Below, one piece after another: positions 29,067 to 39,782 of a stretch of DNA of 64,000 bases. Each line of letters opens with the position of its first letter. Positions within the stretch are counted from its first letter, which is position 1. The stretch is taken from assembly GCA_034003325.1 (NCBI GenBank), contig JAVEYW010000003.1, positions 124,001-188,000 of the forward strand, in the 5' to 3' direction. The DNA comes from Desulfobacterales bacterium. Its GTDB lineage: Bacteria; Desulfobacterota; Desulfobacteria; Desulfobacterales; JAFDDL01. The notes below the pieces were generated by a model, which saw nothing but the letters and a program-made list of their open reading frames with translations, did no database searches and had not been told where the DNA came from. A program made the translations under genes and the position numbers.

Positions 29067-31865
29067 TCAATCGTGAAGGATGAGACCGGATGGTAATTGC
29101 TCTCCAAAAATCGCACTTTCTTCTATCGCCGCCAAGGGAGTTGTTTCAGTGACGAACGGCAGGCAGGAAGATAGCTCCGGAAATCTTTTCATCCAATCGA
29201 CGATACGCGTCAACTGGTCATCGGCCAGGTCGCGCATTCGGTCGCCCGTTTTTCTGGCCAATTGAGAAACTGCCATGCCAACCGGTCGGACGTGAAGCCA
29301 CGACTGATCCATTAATGCTTGACACCAATGAAAGGCTTGGTCCGGTGGAATAACCCGGTCCACGGAACCATAGAGGAGTTCTCTTGCGCCGAAGCGCGAG
29401 AGCGCCCAAAACATCTGCGGATTGCTCCTCTTAGGCGTAATTTCAGAAAGCAGCATCTCACCCCATCGCGTTTTGTCGGTCGGCTGCAAATGTTCCAGGT
29501 TGGCCAGCAGCAGCCAGATTTCGAGCACCTCCTGGGCCGGCATCTTGGTTCGCGCCCCTTTTTTGGGCATCAGTACGGATGTCAGTTCCTGACTCAACTG
29601 CCGTTGTTGGCCTGCGGTAAGCCCGGCGCAAATTCGGCGCCACATAATCCACCACTCGGAGCGCACCTGTGCGTTTTTTGAATGAATCGGCCCCTGTTTG
29701 TGGAATTTCCATAGTTTTTTAAGCCGTTGGGGGTCAAATGCGTCCCCGAACCCAGGCCGCATGCAAAATCCCACGAGGTTCATCCAGCGGCTTTCCTGCT
29801 CCGCAACGATATAGCGGGCCGATTCCAATTCAAGCAGATCATCGCTCAGCATACGGATAAAGGACAAGGGCCAGTGTTCTTTTGCATGCCCCACCGTCTG
29901 CGAGATCTCCTTGACAACCGACTCAAGTTCATTTCGATTGACTTGTGATGAGAACACCCGTTCGATTTTATGGCGAATCCCATCCACAATCGAGGCCTCT
30001 ATCACGCGTGTATCGGCCACCGTAGGGGATACATTCACTCGGTCCCGAAGTTGAAATTGAAGCTGCCAGCGGTGATTGGTCGCTCGACTGCGGCACCAGA
30101 GCGACAGTGTTCCTATTTCGGTATAGGTCGCTTCGAGTTGAACCGGAATTTCGGTTTGCTGGCTCTTTTTTCCGAATTCAATCACGGTTTGCAATGGCGG
30201 CATGGGGGTCAACGAATCATCCACAGTTACCAGATCACCGCAAGCATCACCGGACCGAAAGCTGGAGCTATAGACATCAAAGCGAACCGGTTGATTGGCC
30301 AGCACCTTAAAATTACGGTCTCTTAGTTCAATTTCCGATCCTTCATCCAGGCCGCGTTCTACCAGACATATGGCTTCACCGGGTGTATTTTCCGGACTAT
30401 CCGTTTGGGTGGCCACACCAAGATAATAGGCCCGGGCGCTGCCGGAGCCGACACGAATACCGATACCGGTTTTAACCAGTCCGTAATAAGCGGCGCCCAA
30501 GGCCACCGCCAGATCCGGAACCGGGTTATCCAGCACGTTGGGACGTCCCTTGTTCGATTCACCAAACCAGTGACGCAGCGCTTCTCTAATATTATCCTGA
30601 ATGATATCTGGCTTTAAAGATCCACCATTGAATAAGATATGGTTGGGGGCGGGATCCTCGCGCTGCAGCGCCATCGTGATATCGTTTCGGTGTTGCTCAA
30701 TGAACCAGCATAAATGCTTGGTCACGGCCGCTTCGGGTTCATAAAGAAGACCGAGTTCCGATATGCCTTTTCGTTCGGTTCGCTTTCTGATCGTGCCGGA
30801 GGGTACCAACGGGAAAAATCCCTCCGTCACGACCGACTCCACGTCCTTTCGGGTCAGCTCGGCGGACAAGGTACCGGAAATAAGCTTTCCGCCCTCGCCC
30901 ATCAAGGTAATTTTAACCGCTGCGGCATGGCCATCCAAAAGGGTTTCTTTGGCCTGACGGCATTGATGGCAGAGAGATTTCCAACGATCCGCGCCAAGCG
31001 ATGCGGACTTGCCGGAAAACCGCATTTCTACTGTGCGGGCCAACGCGAGATCAACATTGTCGCCGCCCAGAATCAAATGATCGCCCACCGCAATTCTTTC
31101 AAAACGAGGGCTGCCATCTGTCTCCCGCAAGCTGATCAATGTAAAATCGGAGGTGCCGCCCCCCACGTCGCAGACGAGAATCAATTCACCGGGCCGGACC
31201 AAGTCTTGCCAATGGTGTTCATGCCGAATGAGCCAGGAATAAAAAACAGCCAGGGGTTCTTCGAGCAAGGTGATATTTTTTAAACCGGCCATGGCGGCGG
31301 CTTCAACCGTCAGATCCCGGGCCACCTCGTCAAAAGACGCCGGCACGGTAATAATGATCATCTGGTTTTCGAAAAACAGATCGTCGTTGTCTCCCTTGCC
31401 GTGGTTCCAGGCATTGCGAATATGAGAAAGGTAGGCGGCCGTCGCCTGCACTGGCGACACCTTATTGATATTTCCGGAAACGCCCCAGGGAAGAATTTTC
31501 GCCTGCCGGTCCACGTTGCTGTGGCAAAGCCAGCTTTTGGCGGAAGAAATTAATCTGGCAGGCACTTTGATCCCATGGTCCCTGGCAAAAGCGCCCACCA
31601 CATGCGCGGGAGAATCCGACCAGGGAAGCGCAACGGCTTCTTTTGAAATGTCGTACTCCCCCGGAATGTATAAAAAGGAAGGCAGCACGGAAAGCTTGGT
31701 TATCTCGCCGGGACCAGTTAATTGGGACACGCGAAACAGCTTGATTGCTTGTTGTTTGGCTTTTTGAGAAATATGGGGGGGGATTTCCTGTAAATCCACA
31801 TAGGATACCGCTGAGTTGGTTGTGCCCAGGTCAATACCGATGATGTACCGCTGATCAATCGCCAC
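29067..31865 (-). CDS. Large Hsp70-family protein with C-terminal extension (DUF3731-like)
   Basis: 932 residues. Residues 1-570 or so are a divergent Hsp70: IIGIDLGTTNSAVSY, TVPASFDEVARD, VCDVGGGTSDFTLI, GGDNVDLALA, FNGGSLKPDII. The canonical peptide-binding C-terminus is replaced by about 350 residues that are probably helical; DUF3731 is the family I remember attached to such proteins. Two regions (SSAKSWLCH; SGSARAYYLGVA) are shared with the adjacent 608-residue paralogue. The start is GTG, overlapping the stop of that gene by 11 bases, with AAAGGGA before it. It is the last gene of a three-gene minus-strand operon with the membrane protein at 33744-34508. Function is unknown; a dedicated chaperone is inferred. 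Confidence 0.85.
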   Translation of the reverse strand: MAIDQRYIIGIDLGTTNSAVSYVDLQEIPPHISQKAKQQAIKLFRVSQLTGPGEITKLSVLPSFLYIPGEYDISKEAVALPWSDSPAHVVGAFARDHGIKVPARLISSAKSWLCHSNVDRQAKILPWGVSGNINKVSPVQATAAYLSHIRNAWNHGKGDNDDLFFENQMIIITVPASFDEVARDLTVEAAAMAGLKNITLLEEPLAVFYSWLIRHEHHWQDLVRPGELILVCDVGGGTSDFTLISLRETDGSPRFERIAVGDHLILGGDNVDLALARTVEMRFSGKSASLGADRWKSLCHQCRQAKETLLDGHAAAVKITLMGEGGKLISGTLSAELTRKDVESVVTEGFFPLVPSGTIRKRTERKGISELGLLYEPEAAVTKHLCWFIEQHRNDITMALQREDPAPNHILFNGGSLKPDIIQDNIREALRHWFGESNKGRPNVLDNPVPDLAVALGAAYYGLVKTGIGIRVGSGSARAYYLGVATQTDSPENTPGEAICLVERGLDEGSEIELRDRNFKVLANQPVRFDVYSSSFRSGDACGDLVTVDDSLTPMPPLQTVIEFGKKSQQTEIPVQLEATYTEIGTLSLWCRSRATNHRWQLQFQLRDRVNVSPTVADTRVIEASIVDGIRHKIERVFSSQVNRNELESVVKEISQTVGHAKEHWPLSFIRMLSDDLLELESARYIVAEQESRWMNLVGFCMRPGFGDAFDPQRLKKLWKFHKQGPIHSKNAQVRSEWWIMWRRICAGLTAGQQRQLSQELTSVLMPKKGARTKMPAQEVLEIWLLLANLEHLQPTDKTRWGEMLLSEITPKRSNPQMFWALSRFGARELLYGSVDRVIPPDQAFHWCQALMDQSWLHVRPVGMAVSQLARKTGDRMRDLADDQLTRIVDWMKRFPELSSCLPFVTETTPLAAIEESAIFGEQLPSGLILHD

Positions 31866-33681
31866 CGCTGTCCCTTTCTCGAACGTTGAATTCGAGCTTC
31901 CATTTGCGATCGTTTGTCGTGGAAGCGCACCAGACTTCCAATGTACCGATTTCCGTTACCGCGATTTCCAGGGTAACGGGAACCAGAGAGCCCAGTTCGC
32001 CATCCAGGGTGGTTTCCAAGGTCGTAATCGGTTCGATCTGCCCTTCCCAATCATCGATAATGGTACCGGGCGCATCGTCAAATCGCTCTGCGGAACCCAA
32101 AAAATCAAACATAACCGGCTCGCCTACAACCAGCACGAATTCCCGGGAAGACACAACCGCCATGCTCCCCTCCTCCATGCCGAATGGCGCAATGCATAAG
32201 GCGCGAATGGGCGTGGGCATGCCTGGAACTGCCGGCATGGCCGCGGCAATACCCAAATAATAAGATTTTCCAAGACCGCTGCGAATTCGGATGCCGTGGC
32301 CGCGTCGCGCAAGACCATAATAAGCCGCCCCCTTAGCGACCGCCAGATCATAATCGGTCGCGGCTATTTCCCTGACCGGAGCGGCTTTTTCGGAATCTTG
32401 CCATTGATTGAGAATATGCAACACACGTTTTCGCAGTTCATCGGCCTTCATCACGCCGCCGTTAAACAACACGGCCGTCGGATGGGCCGGTGCCTTCAAA
32501 TGCGCATCCAGCCTGCTTAGAAAACGCGCCAAGTGCCGGGAAATAGAGGGATCAGCCTCATAGGCCAAGCCAATCTCCTTTAATCCGATCCGTTGCGGCG
32601 CCTTCGGTGTCTCGCTCCTGTCACAGGCGGGGAAAAAACCGTCCAGAATGATCGATTCGGCATCCTGCCGTGTGAGATCCGTTCGAAGGGTGCCCCCGAT
32701 CAAGCTTCTTCCGGAACCGAGAATGGAAATCGGGTGCTGTGCCAGACCATCGGCGGCCAATATTTTTTCCTTGGCGTTTCGGCAACTATGCCATAATCCT
32801 TGCATTTGGCGGGCGTCCAGACGTTTTCCCTGATCTGAAAGCCGTTTTGAAAGCGAATAGGCAAGGGTCAGATCCATATTGTCGCCTCCCACCAGCAAAT
32901 GCTCGCCCACGGCGATTCGCTCCAAGGCCAACTCCCCTTCACTTTCGGACACACGAATCATGCTGAAATCGCTGGTGCCGCCACCAATGTCAAACACCAG
33001 AATCATATCCCCAACGGAAACCTGTTCCCGCCAGGACTCACCAGACGCGGCGATCCAGGCATAAAAAGCAGCCTGTGGCTCTTCCAAAAGGGTCACATGC
33101 GAAAGTCCGGCCAACCGGGCCGCTTGAACGGTCAGTTCCCGGGCGACGGCGTCAAAGGAAGCCGGTACCGTCAACAAAATGTCCTGGTTTTCCAGCAGGA
33201 GCCGTTCATCGACCCCGTTGTCCTTTTGTGCCATCAAGTGGTTCCAGGCCTGTCGAATATGATGTAAAATTTTGGCGGACGCTTCCACGGGTGAGAGCTT
33301 CGGGCAATCCTCCGGGCCTTTCCAGGGAAGAATGGCTTTATTGCGATCCACGTGCGTATGGCAAAGCCATGATTTTGCAGAGGATATGAGCCGTTGAGAA
33401 ATTTCAACGCCTCTTGTCTTGGCAAATTCTCCCACGGTAAACGCGGCCTCATCGGGCCAGGGAAGCGATAACGCGTCTTGCGGCACATCATGCGGACCCG
33501 GGGCCAGAATAAACGACGGAAGCATCTGCCGTTCTTCCACCACGCCGGGCCCGACGGTCTGAGGAATATTCAACACATGAACAACCGGGGTTTGACCGGG
33601 TTGTAACCTTGCTTTCGTATACGAGACCACGCTGTTTGTGGTACCGAGATCGATCCCGATGATATATTCAGATTCCATCAT
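31855..33681 (-). CDS. Hsp70-family protein, shorter paralogue
   Basis: 608 residues. Actin-type ATPase signatures of Hsp70 are intact: IIGIDLGTTNSVVSY, TVPASFDAVARE, FDIGGGTSDFSMI, GGDNMDLTLA, FNGGVMKADEL. The last 110 residues form a beta-rich part (TTLETTLDGELGS, VTEIGTLEVWC) in the position of a substrate domain. It resembles the YegD/Hsp70-like families rather than DnaK: it lacks the typical DnaK tail. ATG at 33681 or 33678; no clear ribosome site is seen. It is the middle gene of the operon and overlaps the larger Hsp70 gene. Confidence 0.86.
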   Translation of the reverse strand: MMESEYIIGIDLGTTNSVVSYTKARLQPGQTPVVHVLNIPQTVGPGVVEERQMLPSFILAPGPHDVPQDALSLPWPDEAAFTVGEFAKTRGVEISQRLISSAKSWLCHTHVDRNKAILPWKGPEDCPKLSPVEASAKILHHIRQAWNHLMAQKDNGVDERLLLENQDILLTVPASFDAVARELTVQAARLAGLSHVTLLEEPQAAFYAWIAASGESWREQVSVGDMILVFDIGGGTSDFSMIRVSESEGELALERIAVGEHLLVGGDNMDLTLAYSLSKRLSDQGKRLDARQMQGLWHSCRNAKEKILAADGLAQHPISILGSGRSLIGGTLRTDLTRQDAESIILDGFFPACDRSETPKAPQRIGLKEIGLAYEADPSISRHLARFLSRLDAHLKAPAHPTAVLFNGGVMKADELRKRVLHILNQWQDSEKAAPVREIAATDYDLAVAKGAAYYGLARRGHGIRIRSGLGKSYYLGIAAAMPAVPGMPTPIRALCIAPFGMEEGSMAVVSSREFVLVVGEPVMFDFLGSAERFDDAPGTIIDDWEGQIEPITTLETTLDGELGSLVPVTLEIAVTEIGTLEVWCASTTNDRKWKLEFNVRERDSGGD

Positions 33682-33743
33682 TTAGGTTATGTATTTCCAA
33701 CTCATGGCGCCGACTGGGGCGGTACGGGTTTATAAAAGAGATA

Positions 33744-34508
33744 TTATTGGATTTCCACTTCCGCAGGGGCCAGAATTCCTTCATCCTGGGTTCCGGATAG
33801 CGTCGGCAACTCCTCTTTTTTGGATTGCCATCCGCGATGACGCAAAATGCCCTGAAATGGCGGTTCCCCGCTCACATTTCCAATCAGTTTGATCGCTGCC
33901 GGATTAAACCCCGGTTCAACCGTAACGGCGTCCCCTTCGGTTTTATCGATGATCGGTTTGGGAGCAAGGGATTTATCGATAATTTTTTTGCAGCTTTCGT
34001 GAATACCGCGGACCGCGGCACCGATTTGCGCATCGTCATACAAGCTCAAATCTTCAGCCATAAAGTCGATCAGGCGCCCTTCACGCTGAAGCAGTGATAC
34101 TAAATAAAAATACATCTGTTTATCATGGCGGCGCTTTTGTGCGTGAAGCTCACTGTCATCCGATTTTTTGGGTGTTAGCGTCCGCCCCTGCTTTTTGTCA
34201 ATTGAGAGCGGCATCAATTTCTTGAGCGATTTTCTAACCCCCATCCACAGGGAAAGAGCGGTAATCAAAAAAACAATGGCCAAGGTCGGCAGCGCGCACT
34301 GAAACAGATGCTTTTCGGTTGACGCCAGCAGCTGGGTGATTTTCGGAAATAGCTCGGAATCAGGGGTGATGCCGATCATTCCCGGCAGGTCGGTTTTCAA
34401 GAGCGTCATGCCAAAAAACATGAGTAGAAATACCAAAGCGCCCAGCAGAAAAAAATAAATGATAATTCTGAAAAAAGCGCGGCGTGAAAACATTTTTAAA
34501 ATATCCAA
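33744..34508 (-). CDS. DUF2760-like membrane-anchored protein
   Basis: 254 residues. Two hydrophobic segments near the N-terminus (about residues 14-36 and 75-95) are followed by a polar C-terminal half. That half has QMYFYLVSLLQREGRLIDFM, LYDDAQIGAAVRGIHESCKK and GFNPAAIKLIGNV. These patterns match DUF2760, which I remember as encoded next to Hsp70-like proteins in several proteobacteria. The start is taken as TTG 34508 because AAGGAG lies nine bases upstream; GTG 34526 and ATG 34493 are alternatives. It heads the minus-strand operon with the two Hsp70 genes and may tether them to the membrane. Confidence 0.75.
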   Translation of the reverse strand: MDILKMFSRRAFFRIIIYFFLLGALVFLLMFFGMTLLKTDLPGMIGITPDSELFPKITQLLASTEKHLFQCALPTLAIVFLITALSLWMGVRKSLKKLMPLSIDKKQGRTLTPKKSDDSELHAQKRRHDKQMYFYLVSLLQREGRLIDFMAEDLSLYDDAQIGAAVRGIHESCKKIIDKSLAPKPIIDKTEGDAVTVEPGFNPAAIKLIGNVSGEPPFQGILRHRGWQSKKEELPTLSGTQDEGILAPAEVEIQ

Positions 34509-34610
34509 AATCACTATCTCCTTCACAGCAGATTTTATAACATGCAGTTATCGTGTTGAATGAGGTTGAAACATACCGCTTCCGATTGGGAAGTGCCTGT
34601 TTTCGTTTGG

Positions 34611-35598: not shown

Positions 35599-37206
35599 CT
35601 ATTTTTTCAACCAGTAGGGGTTGATCAGATCTTCAAAAATGGCCAAGGCGGCCGCAGATCCCTGCCCGGTGGCCGTAACAATCTGTTTGTATCCGCCCTC
35701 CACATCTCCGGCCGAATATATTCCGGGAATATTGGTCCGGTGATGGCCATCGTGCTTGATAAATCCGTCAGGCGTGAGCTCAACGCCGATTTTTTGAGCC
35801 AGTTTCACGCTCGGTTCATAGCCGATCGCAATAAAAACGCCGTTCGTTTTAAATTCGGAGGTTTCATTGGTTTTGGTGTTGACGAGAAGCACGGATTCCA
35901 CCTGCTTTTTGCCTTGAATGGCTTGAATCCGAGTATTCCACAGAATGGGGATCTTATTTTCAAATAAATTCCTGGCAAGAAATTCCTGTGCCCGCAATTT
36001 ATCCCCACGATGAATCAGCGTCACCCGAACCCCCATATGATGCAAATGCAAGGCCTCCGTCACCGCACTGTTGCCGCCGCCGACCATCACCACTTCTTTT
36101 CCCTTAAACAAAGGACCGTCACAGGTACTGCAATAGCTGACACCTTTGCCGCTAAATTCCTTTTCACCTTCTGCGCCCAACAGTCTGTGGGTGGCGCCTG
36201 TTGCCAACAGAAGGGTCTTGGTATGAAACTTGCGGCGGGTGGTGGTGACGACCATGGGATTGCCGGGAGCGACATTCAAAACCTCCTCACCCTGAAAAAT
36301 CGGCACATACTCAAGGGCATGGCTGACCATAATATCCACCAGGGTTTTGCCGCCGACTTGCGTGAAACCGGGGTAGTTTTCAACAATAGGCGTTGTGGCC
36401 ACCTGCCCGCCCAGTGCATCACGCTCGATGACGGCGGCCTTTAAACCGGATCTTTCGGCATAAATACCGGCCGTCAACCCGGCGGGTCCCCCACCGACGA
36501 TGACCAGATCGGTTTCAACCAGCGCAGCGTCGCTTTCCGGTATAAAAACGGTCACCGGCTCCAGCTTTTGCAATGATGCCATAAAAAGCTCTTCGGGCCG
36601 AGCTCCCTGGCCTACCAGAATATCATTGGCATAACATTGCGGCACACTCATGGCCGAATATTTTTCAGCCAGATCGATGTTGCTTTGAATATCTATAATT
36701 TCCAATGATACCGTTTCCGGTGCTTCGATGGCCGCCCGAACGCCATTGACCGCTTCTTGTGGGCAATACGGACAGGTGGCGCTCACGAACACTTTAACAT
36801 CTCTGGGAGAATCGATTTTTTTTAATACTTTTTTAGCTTCATCACTTAATTGACTGCTGCCTAGACCAACCAGAATCAGTGTTTCCAGCATGGTTCGGCC
36901 TTCTTCGCCCAAAGGGGCACCAAGCCATCTAATCTTGTATTTTTCGGGTGCGATTAAAAGCGTTGGCGATCTTGTCGCATTCCATTTTTTGGCCAGTTCG
37001 TTGTCCAGAAAATATTCCCTGAATTTTATTTTATCCGTCAACTCTCTAAATGCCCGCATGATTTGCCGATTGGTCTGAACAAATAGGCTGTCATCGCCAC
37101 GAGATACAAAATGATAAACGGGAATTTCATTGGGAAGCTTCTCAAAGGTCGCTCGAAGCTGTTTCATGATATTGGCATTTTCAGATTCTTGTTCGTGCGT
37201 ATCCAT
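35599..37206 (-). CDS. Thioredoxin reductase-like flavoprotein with N-terminal disulfide oxidoreductase domain
   Basis: 535 residues. Residues 1-115 look like a thioredoxin fold without CxxC. Residues 130-215 form a second one with active site CPYC (Cys145, Cys148). From residue 232 a thioredoxin-reductase domain follows: VIVGGGPAGLTAGIYA for FAD, the redox pair CSTC (Cys359, Cys362), VGGGNSAV for NADPH and IYSAGDVEGG. The layout resembles AhpF, the NADH-dependent reductase of AhpC, but no ahpC gene is adjacent. It probably passes electrons from NAD(P)H through the CSTC pair to CPYC and on to a protein partner. It lies 56 bases downstream of ispD. Confidence 0.87.
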   Translation of the reverse strand: MDTHEQESENANIMKQLRATFEKLPNEIPVYHFVSRGDDSLFVQTNRQIMRAFRELTDKIKFREYFLDNELAKKWNATRSPTLLIAPEKYKIRWLGAPLGEEGRTMLETLILVGLGSSQLSDEAKKVLKKIDSPRDVKVFVSATCPYCPQEAVNGVRAAIEAPETVSLEIIDIQSNIDLAEKYSAMSVPQCYANDILVGQGARPEELFMASLQKLEPVTVFIPESDAALVETDLVIVGGGPAGLTAGIYAERSGLKAAVIERDALGGQVATTPIVENYPGFTQVGGKTLVDIMVSHALEYVPIFQGEEVLNVAPGNPMVVTTTRRKFHTKTLLLATGATHRLLGAEGEKEFSGKGVSYCSTCDGPLFKGKEVVMVGGGNSAVTEALHLHHMGVRVTLIHRGDKLRAQEFLARNLFENKIPILWNTRIQAIQGKKQVESVLLVNTKTNETSEFKTNGVFIAIGYEPSVKLAQKIGVELTPDGFIKHDGHHRTNIPGIYSAGDVEGGYKQIVTATGQGSAAALAIFEDLINPYWLKK

Positions 37207-37262: not shown

Positions 37263-37964
37263 TTAGCGACTTTCGTTTTGTCTCATCAATTGAAGAAGGG
37301 CCTCGGCAAGCAAAAGATCCTCCGGCGTGGTAATTTTAATATTGTTTCGACTCCCGAGAATCATTTTAATCCGGTGGCCGGTCTTTTCCAAAAGAACCGC
37401 ATCATCCGTTCCCAAAATGCCCGACGCCAGTGCCTGCTCATGGGCATGCCGGATCAAATCATATCGAAATACCTGAGGGGTTTGTGCCAACCAGACATTT
37501 GCCCGGTCAACGGTGCGAATAATACCGCCATTTTCCGAAATGACCTTTAACGTATCCGAGGCCGGTATGCCCAATATGCAACCGTGATGATTCCGGGCTG
37601 CTTTATAGCAGGCGGATAACTGCGCCGTGGTGATAAACGGTCGAACCCCGTCATGAATGGCAACCAAGCCGGTTGGGTCATTAATGGTTCTTAACCCATT
37701 ATAAACGGATTCCTGCCGCACCTTACCGCCGGGAACCAGCGTAATGGGCTTTTTAGGTGAAACGGGAGGTAGTACAACCTGTCTGCAAAAATCAAAATCG
37801 CTTTCCGGAATTACCAATACGATATGATCTGTTTCCCGGCTTTGATTAAAAACACGCAACGTATGAGATAGAATCGGCAGGCCGTCCAATTGTAAAAACT
37901 GTTTTCGTACCAGCCCTCCCATTCGAAGGCCTTGACCGGCGGCGACAATTACAGCGGAATTCAT
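37263..37964 (-). CDS. ispD: 2-C-methyl-D-erythritol 4-phosphate cytidylyltransferase
   Basis: 233 residues. CTP-dependent MEP-pathway enzyme. The signature VIVAAGQGLRMGG with KQFLQL provides the CTP-binding loop; HDGVRPFI, ALASGILGTDDAVLLE and NIKITTPEDL complete the family pattern. Residue order and length are normal. It lies 32 bases downstream of the HPr-domain gene and 56 bases before the flavoprotein. Confidence 0.95.
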   Translation of the reverse strand: MNSAVIVAAGQGLRMGGLVRKQFLQLDGLPILSHTLRVFNQSRETDHIVLVIPESDFDFCRQVVLPPVSPKKPITLVPGGKVRQESVYNGLRTINDPTGLVAIHDGVRPFITTAQLSACYKAARNHHGCILGIPASDTLKVISENGGIIRTVDRANVWLAQTPQVFRYDLIRHAHEQALASGILGTDDAVLLEKTGHRIKMILGSRNNIKITTPEDLLLAEALLQLMRQNESR

Positions 37965-37996: not shown

Positions 37997-39343
37997 TCAT
38001 TTTAAGTAATTTAATTCTTGAGGCAAAGGGATCCCTTTGCCCATCGTGTCTTCACCATAATTGACCTCCGACAACACTTCAATATCCCGTAACGCACGAA
38101 TATCGCCTTGAAAAACGACATGGATAATATTTTCTTTTTGAATTTTTCCGCCGGCCCATTGAATATCCAACACGCTGCTGGCATCAAACCGGTCCTTATC
38201 AATGCACAGCTCCACATGGCCACCGTAATGCTGAACAATTTTAGCGACCAGAAGGCTCGGTCGGCTATGAAAACCCAATTTTTGGGGAATGCCGACGGTT
38301 ATGCTGCCTTTTTCAATATTTTCATTTAAAATTTCCCGCGCCAATTCTTTACCGGTCGTGAGAAAATGACAAACATAATAGAGTCCGTAATTGATGGTTC
38401 GATCTAAAAGTCTTTGAGAATCAATGAGTTCCGACAGCCTGTCGCTGACCTGTTTGTAAATGTTTTTATATCCGGCATCATGAAGATGCCGTTCATAAAA
38501 ATGAAGCAGCCTGCCAATTACCTGCAACAGGTGAAAAACAACGGAAAAATGTCCGCGAAGCTGCTTCATTTTTCGATTCCCGAACAGGTATCCGCCATGA
38601 ATGACATAGGTATCGAACTGGGATTGCAGATTGTGAACCATCATTTCAAAACTGCGCATTTTGACTTCGTTTACCTTGTCGGGAATAATGCTCATGATTT
38701 CCTGAATATCATAAGGATCATAAAACCCGAGCTGATCGAAACTGCGCGCAATATTTAAAAATTCACTGGCGATATAAACAATATTTTCTTTTTGACTTTC
38801 CTTATCCAGATCATCAATGTCATAAGGGAGCATCTCACTGGTCGTAACCCCCGGAAAATCATCGGCCTTATAGTCATCCGTCGGCAACTGAATATTAAGA
38901 CGCTTGGCCTCGTTCAATATCACCGGCGCCATCTTCATCAATGTATTGGTTAAAAAATCAAGCGTTTCAGCGCCTTCTCGTTCAAATTCGTCCGTATCCG
39001 AAAGAAAATAAAAATCCAGACGGTTGGAGATGTGTTTCTGTGAATAGCCGGCAGCCCCCAGATGGCGAACAGCCGCACATAATTCACGGTAAAAAAACCA
39101 ATCCTTGCTGTTTTTAGCCCCGTGAAAATCCAGAAAGTCTTCCAGAAGTTGAGAGGAAGAAATCAATGTGGAATAAAGTTTTTTAGTGAAAAAATGCTGG
39201 GGGGTGGTAAATGCGGCAATATAACGGCAACATTTCAAATAATCATGAGAAAATATTCTGACCTTTTCGGAGAAAGAAATGCCGCATGATTCATTTTCGG
39301 CGGCGTTAGCGCCCGATGATGCAATGGTTTCCAAAACGTTCAT
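37997..39343 (-). CDS. Large helical protein ending in an HPr-like domain
   Basis: 448 residues. The first 340 residues are mainly helical, with no family I recognise. Residues about 347-430 resemble HPr: GIPQKLGFHSRPSLLVAKIV has His359 in the place of the phosphorylated His15, and DASSVLDIQWAGG matches the region around Ser46. No PTS enzyme I or permease is nearby. It may sense phosphoenolpyruvate or energy state, or be a non-phosphorylatable scaffold. ATG 39343 is taken over GTG 39358 because the GGAAA ribosome-like stretch is better placed. It lies between rnpB and ispD on the same strand. Confidence 0.7.
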   Translation of the reverse strand: MNVLETIASSGANAAENESCGISFSEKVRIFSHDYLKCCRYIAAFTTPQHFFTKKLYSTLISSSQLLEDFLDFHGAKNSKDWFFYRELCAAVRHLGAAGYSQKHISNRLDFYFLSDTDEFEREGAETLDFLTNTLMKMAPVILNEAKRLNIQLPTDDYKADDFPGVTTSEMLPYDIDDLDKESQKENIVYIASEFLNIARSFDQLGFYDPYDIQEIMSIIPDKVNEVKMRSFEMMVHNLQSQFDTYVIHGGYLFGNRKMKQLRGHFSVVFHLLQVIGRLLHFYERHLHDAGYKNIYKQVSDRLSELIDSQRLLDRTINYGLYYVCHFLTTGKELAREILNENIEKGSITVGIPQKLGFHSRPSLLVAKIVQHYGGHVELCIDKDRFDASSVLDIQWAGGKIQKENIIHVVFQGDIRALRDIEVLSEVNYGEDTMGKGIPLPQELNYLK

Positions 39344-39395
39344 ATATCGTATTTCCACGCGTTAATAGCGACGACGTTGTAAAAAGCGGAAAAAA

Positions 39396-39782
<387 letters not shown>

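Follow-up and report, generated by a model that had tools for sequence, protein, structure and literature searches.

HPr and NPr (PF00381, TIGR01003) are single-domain proteins of about 85–90 amino acids with an active-site GxHxRP loop and a Ser46-type helix start. Crh of Bacillus subtilis lacks the active-site histidine of HPr. HPr domains also occur within larger polypeptides, as in FPr/FruB and the HPr-EI fusions, and in the multi-domain HPr proteins described so far the additional domains are EIIA and/or EI (PMC2405797). Little is known about PTS output in anaerobes whose growth does not depend on sugars; for Desulfotalea psychrophila, a survey published in 2008 reported a PTS chain that was missing or incomplete (PMC2405797).

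The protein described here, from a member of the Desulfobacterales, joins an HPr domain to a large helical part and is a direct candidate for such a PTS output. With HPr and NPr it shares the HPr fold, the active-site loop and the Ser46-type helix start, but it is 453 amino acids long, has a helical part of about 320 residues, ends in a tail starting NYGED, scores near the PF00381 cut-off and falls below the cut-offs of TIGR01003 and the NPr model NF008146. Its gene is a neighbour of rnpB and ispD and is not clustered with ptsI or ptsN. As in the FPr/FruB type, the HPr domain is part of a larger polypeptide; unlike that type, in which HPr is joined to EIIA and/or EI, the fused protein has no EIIA or EI match. 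In common with Crh it keeps the Ser46 equivalent and possibly puts the HPr fold to regulatory use, whereas the active-site histidine, replaced in Crh, is invariant. Of the PTS-Ntr (PtsP, PtsO, PtsN), the source genome also encodes PtsP and PtsN, along with EIIA-Man, and the NPr equivalent would here be the C-terminal domain of a 453-residue protein; a regulatory PTS is the likely setting. The open literature yielded no description of this architecture, although subscription papers fell mostly outside the search and may hold an earlier account. The words ‘fused’, ‘fusion’ and ‘HPr-like’ appear nowhere in the text of a 2026 review of PTS-Ntr (PMC13104625).

Domain architecture of the fused protein

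The open reading frame of 453 codons occupies positions 37997–39358 of the window (the whole 64,000-nucleotide stretch analysed), on the minus strand, and is counted from a GTG start codon at 39358 to a stop codon at 37997–37999. An earlier note had placed the end of this frame at 39343; the frame exists, and 39343 is an in-frame ATG five codons inside the GTG-started frame. Because homologues align only from about residue 20–27, either start codon is possible.

The C-terminal domain (residues 350–434; 38057–38311, minus strand) is a true but diverged relative of HPr. The PF00381 profile aligns to residues 354–419 with 19.7 bits in one search and 23.1 bits in the genome search, against a cut-off of 23. 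Other members of the fused family score both above and below this cut-off, and hmmscan matched PF00381 in all 25 aligned homologues. TIGR01003 matches with an E-value of 1.8e-5 and 24.6 bits against a cut-off of 47.9, and NF008146, the NCBIfam NPr model, gives 17.1 bits against 119. In structure alignments, the predicted domain superposes on solved HPr structures over 80–85 residues with Z-scores of about 9.5–10.5 and an rmsd of about 2 Å. The AF2 model that includes the HPr domain has a pLDDT of 86.9 and a pTM of 0.85, with low confidence in the histidine loop (residues 336–339 of the trimmed numbering are below pLDDT 50). The profile matches and the fold bear out the earlier note, which had recognized an HPr-like C-terminus with a GFHSRPS loop and a Ser46-type region.

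Among 45 homologues of about 24–75% identity, Gly362, Phe363, His364, Arg366 and Pro367 (GFHxRP) are invariant. His364 (codon 38267–38269, minus strand; His359 when counted from the ATG) is the HPr active-site histidine. Its loss in close homologues, which the note had named as evidence against its reading, was not seen even at about 25–30% identity. Ser395 (codon 38174–38176, minus strand) aligns with Ser46 of HPr and is 98% conserved among the same 45 homologues; the region that follows is diverged (QWAGG). The homologue alignment also shows that the tail starting NYGED (38000–38062, minus strand), which extends past the standard HPr length, is conserved.

The all-helical part spans approximately residues 27–348 and is predicted by AF2 to form two four-helix bundles, one from residue 27 to 156 (38891–39280, minus strand) and the other from residue 182 to 349 (38312–38815, minus strand), both conserved and with pLDDT mostly above 90. 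The two bundles are also predicted when the helical part is modelled alone with 44 homologues (pLDDT 91.2, pTM 0.91). With alignment positions converted to residue numbers by adding 26, the invariant positions of the homologue alignment include E73, D77, W87 and E150 (first bundle) and H242, S246, D249, R268, H286, R290 and H291 (second bundle). L76, A81, L177 and P226 are further invariant positions.

No fold is named for the helical part, which has no clear fold match; helical bundles are hard to place. In the hmmscan of 25 members against Pfam, HPr was the only consistent family and none was shared by the helical part. A sequence search of the PDB with the helical part returned nothing above chance, and Foldseek gave no match at E<0.001. 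The best scores of the structural aligner, with Z of about 10, were to designed bundles; the scores to the CHAD structure 6qva (Z 7.9–8.3 over about 140 residues) and to the HPt-type bundle of CheA P1 (2lp4, Z 7.9) are no higher than unrelated bundles can reach. The N-terminus that the note had called unfamiliar thus has no Pfam family, PDB-sequence match or clear fold match, and the confident family assignment that would have counted against that description was not found by domain search or structure prediction. We also considered an internal duplication of the two bundles and rejected it, as a profile–profile comparison gave a probability of 0.5% and no detectable homology. Sequence matches of the fused protein to XOL-1 and to a salivary protein are at chance level.

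Distribution and Enzyme I partners

The fused protein is near-universal and single-copy in the Desulfobacterales. A protein search of 96 order genomes found it in 89, mostly at 53–75% identity; two of the initial 91 matches (G011 and G047) were removed because they were canonical HPr only. Three order genomes that are at least 90% complete (G022, G033 and G082) gave no match, by loss or gap. Across the phylum, after two short-HPr matches were dropped, 38 of 395 genomes carry the fused protein, 21 of them in families outside the order. Named relatives with the protein are Desulfosarcina, Desulfatitalea and Desulfosudis, together with uncultured Desulfobacterales.

The source assembly, in which the fused gene lies on contig C3, comprises 4.62 Mb and is 97.6% complete. 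A PF05524 search of this genome identified a single Enzyme I: PtsP, which is GAF-linked, is about 790 amino acids long and carries the active-site motif GGRTSH. A PF00359 search identified three EIIA-Ntr domains. One is ptsN in the cluster lptB-rpoN-hpf-ptsN-rapZ, with a gene for EIIA-Man after rapZ. Another is fused to a Na+/H+ exchanger (L042:7547-9229, contig C17) and is likely to place ion transport under direct PTS control. The third belongs to a helix-turn-helix protein adjoining a chloride-channel-like gene (L043:2373-4795, contig C16). The absence of PTS components near the fused gene, as first noted, therefore holds locally; PtsP, the three EIIA-Ntr domains and EIIA-Man are on other contigs. 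The proposal to look for Enzyme I and HPr kinase in the genome brought out PtsP but no bona fide HPr kinase: the PF07475 match in this incomplete assembly is a sub-threshold P-loop fragment (positions 8–58 of 171) inside an exopolysaccharide cluster, and we discarded it as a candidate.

Canonical HPr was not found in the source assembly. Relatives have canonical ptsH directly before ptsI, followed by smpB, and most members of the order keep this ptsH in addition to the fused gene. In the source assembly ptsH-ptsI and smpB are all missing (compare L174:3051-5841). Since smpB is missing along with its neighbours, loss of canonical HPr from the source genome is unproven. Six relatives (G001, G018, G031, G072, G074 and G077) yielded neither Enzyme I nor smpB, and in G046 the contig ends within a truncated ptsI. 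We read the absence of Enzyme I in these cases as an assembly or binning gap because smpB is also missing or the contig ends in ptsI, and a common gap of this kind is the best reading of the missing ptsH-ptsI-smpB in the source assembly and the six relatives. By the same control we rejected the idea that the fused protein occurs in genomes lacking Enzyme I and is hence independent of the PTS. Some genomes have integrases or transposases close to smpB or ptsI (L173, L176 and L185), and the ptsH-ptsI-smpB site may be a hot spot for islands, prone to being dropped in assembly and binning.

Enzyme I is present in every genome with the fused protein whose Enzyme I locus is assembled, including all 21 such genomes outside the order. 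In nine of these 21 the locus reads rsmI-ptsH-ptsI, with HPr detected at E<1e-32. In the other twelve (G129, G165, G197, G224, G225, G251, G275, G298, G340, G360, G380 and G452) rsmI directly precedes ptsI and the ptsH slot is empty; a search of the ptsI locus found no HPr even at E<1. All twelve Enzymes I keep the active-site histidine motif GGxTSH and a full-length HPr-binding N-terminal domain (PF05524). In G224 the PTS-Ntr cluster gene rapZ follows the fused gene (L169:9373-11594) at a distance of 30 bp, and ptsI is about 13 kb away. Judged from the ptsI locus, canonical HPr seems to have been lost in the twelve genomes. The simplest reading of these sequences is that the HPr domain of the fused protein would serve their Enzyme I, and the fused protein may have replaced stand-alone HPr in some related lineages. 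Whether a domain within a larger protein has replaced HPr can be tested directly in the lineages without ptsH.

Proposed role and alternatives

We suggest that the fused protein is, on balance, probably a soluble PTS output protein that would be charged at His364 by Enzyme I and would thereby switch a helical effector part. In this scheme PEP would charge PtsI, the GAF-linked PtsP or both, and this Enzyme I would pass the phosphoryl group to His364 of the C-terminal HPr domain, whose phosphorylation would then reflect the cellular PEP/pyruvate state. The paired four-helix bundles would act as an effector or bind a partner, with the activity or binding depending on whether the HPr domain is charged. 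Most members of the order keep canonical ptsH next to ptsI, and therefore the fused protein is not needed there as a carrier; in lineages without ptsH it would probably also act as the HPr for Enzyme I, with phosphate passing onward to EIIA-type proteins. A phosphorylation-controlled regulator, one of the roles that the earlier note had considered, is the best fit to the invariant histidine, arginine and proline, the co-occurrence with Enzyme I and the twelve genomes without ptsH; the energy sensor that it had also mentioned is not specifically supported. Counting against the output proposal are the divergence of the HPr domain, with its PF00381 score near the cut-off, and the low confidence of the histidine loop.

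The same divergence raises the question whether the HPr-like domain is charged at all. It could be an unphosphorylated interaction module, a use of the fold like that in Crh, with the conserved function residing in the helical part. The weak profile score, the diverged QWAGG region after the Ser46 equivalent, the unique conserved tail, the strong conservation of the helical part and the persistence of canonical ptsH in most of the order are consistent with such a module. Yet the active-site residues that Crh does without are invariant here, down to the most distant of the 45 homologues, and Enzyme I accompanies the fused protein wherever its locus is assembled; we consider an uncharged module unlikely. 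The opposite simplification, that the protein is simply NPr (PtsO), shuttling phosphate from PtsP/EI to EIIA-Ntr and EIIA-Man carrying an extra structural domain and lacking a regulatory output of its own, appears less likely still. It would account for the lack of canonical HPr in a source assembly that has PtsP, EIIA-Ntr and EIIA-Man, for the twelve ptsI loci without ptsH and for the single rapZ-linked copy. However, canonical ptsH and the fused gene are both kept in most of the order, the absence of ptsH from the source assembly coincides with that of smpB and may be a gap, and 320 helical residues with invariant charged residues and histidines exceed what a spacer needs.

These invariant residues lead to two further readings. 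The helical part could be an enzyme or ligand sensor tuned in cis by the HPr domain, a reading that makes the output proposal more specific. Conservation of E73, D77 and E150 in bundle 1 and of H242, S246, D249, R268, H286, R290 and H291 in bundle 2 argues for it; the helical part matches no enzyme family by fold or sequence, and we regard a catalytic or sensory role as possible though rather doubtful. An internal phosphorelay from the HPr domain to a histidine of bundle 2 (H242, H286 or H291) is the least probable of the readings considered here and would be quite surprising. It would make the protein a new histidine phosphotransfer class linking the PTS to an output, with canonical HPr displaced in several lineages.

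Gene neighbourhood

The fused gene is flanked immediately upstream by rnpB (39398–39776, minus strand), which encodes a class A RNase P RNA (Rfam RF00010, 306 bits), and 33 bp downstream by ispD on the same strand (37263–37964, minus strand). The block rpoD-NIF3-CT398-rnpB-fused-ispD is kept across the Desulfobacterales, with ispD at most 2 kb downstream of the fused gene in 91 of 97 loci (some genomes being counted twice). The distant families showed no such block. None of the conserved neighbours rnpB, ispD and rpoD has a link to the PTS, a further point against the output proposal. Adjoining ispD in the window is a gene for a 535-residue thioredoxin-reductase-like protein (35599–37206, minus strand) with an N-terminal thioredoxin-type domain containing CPYC. 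An Hsp70-like protein is encoded at 31855–34526 (minus strand), adjoining a DUF2760 protein.
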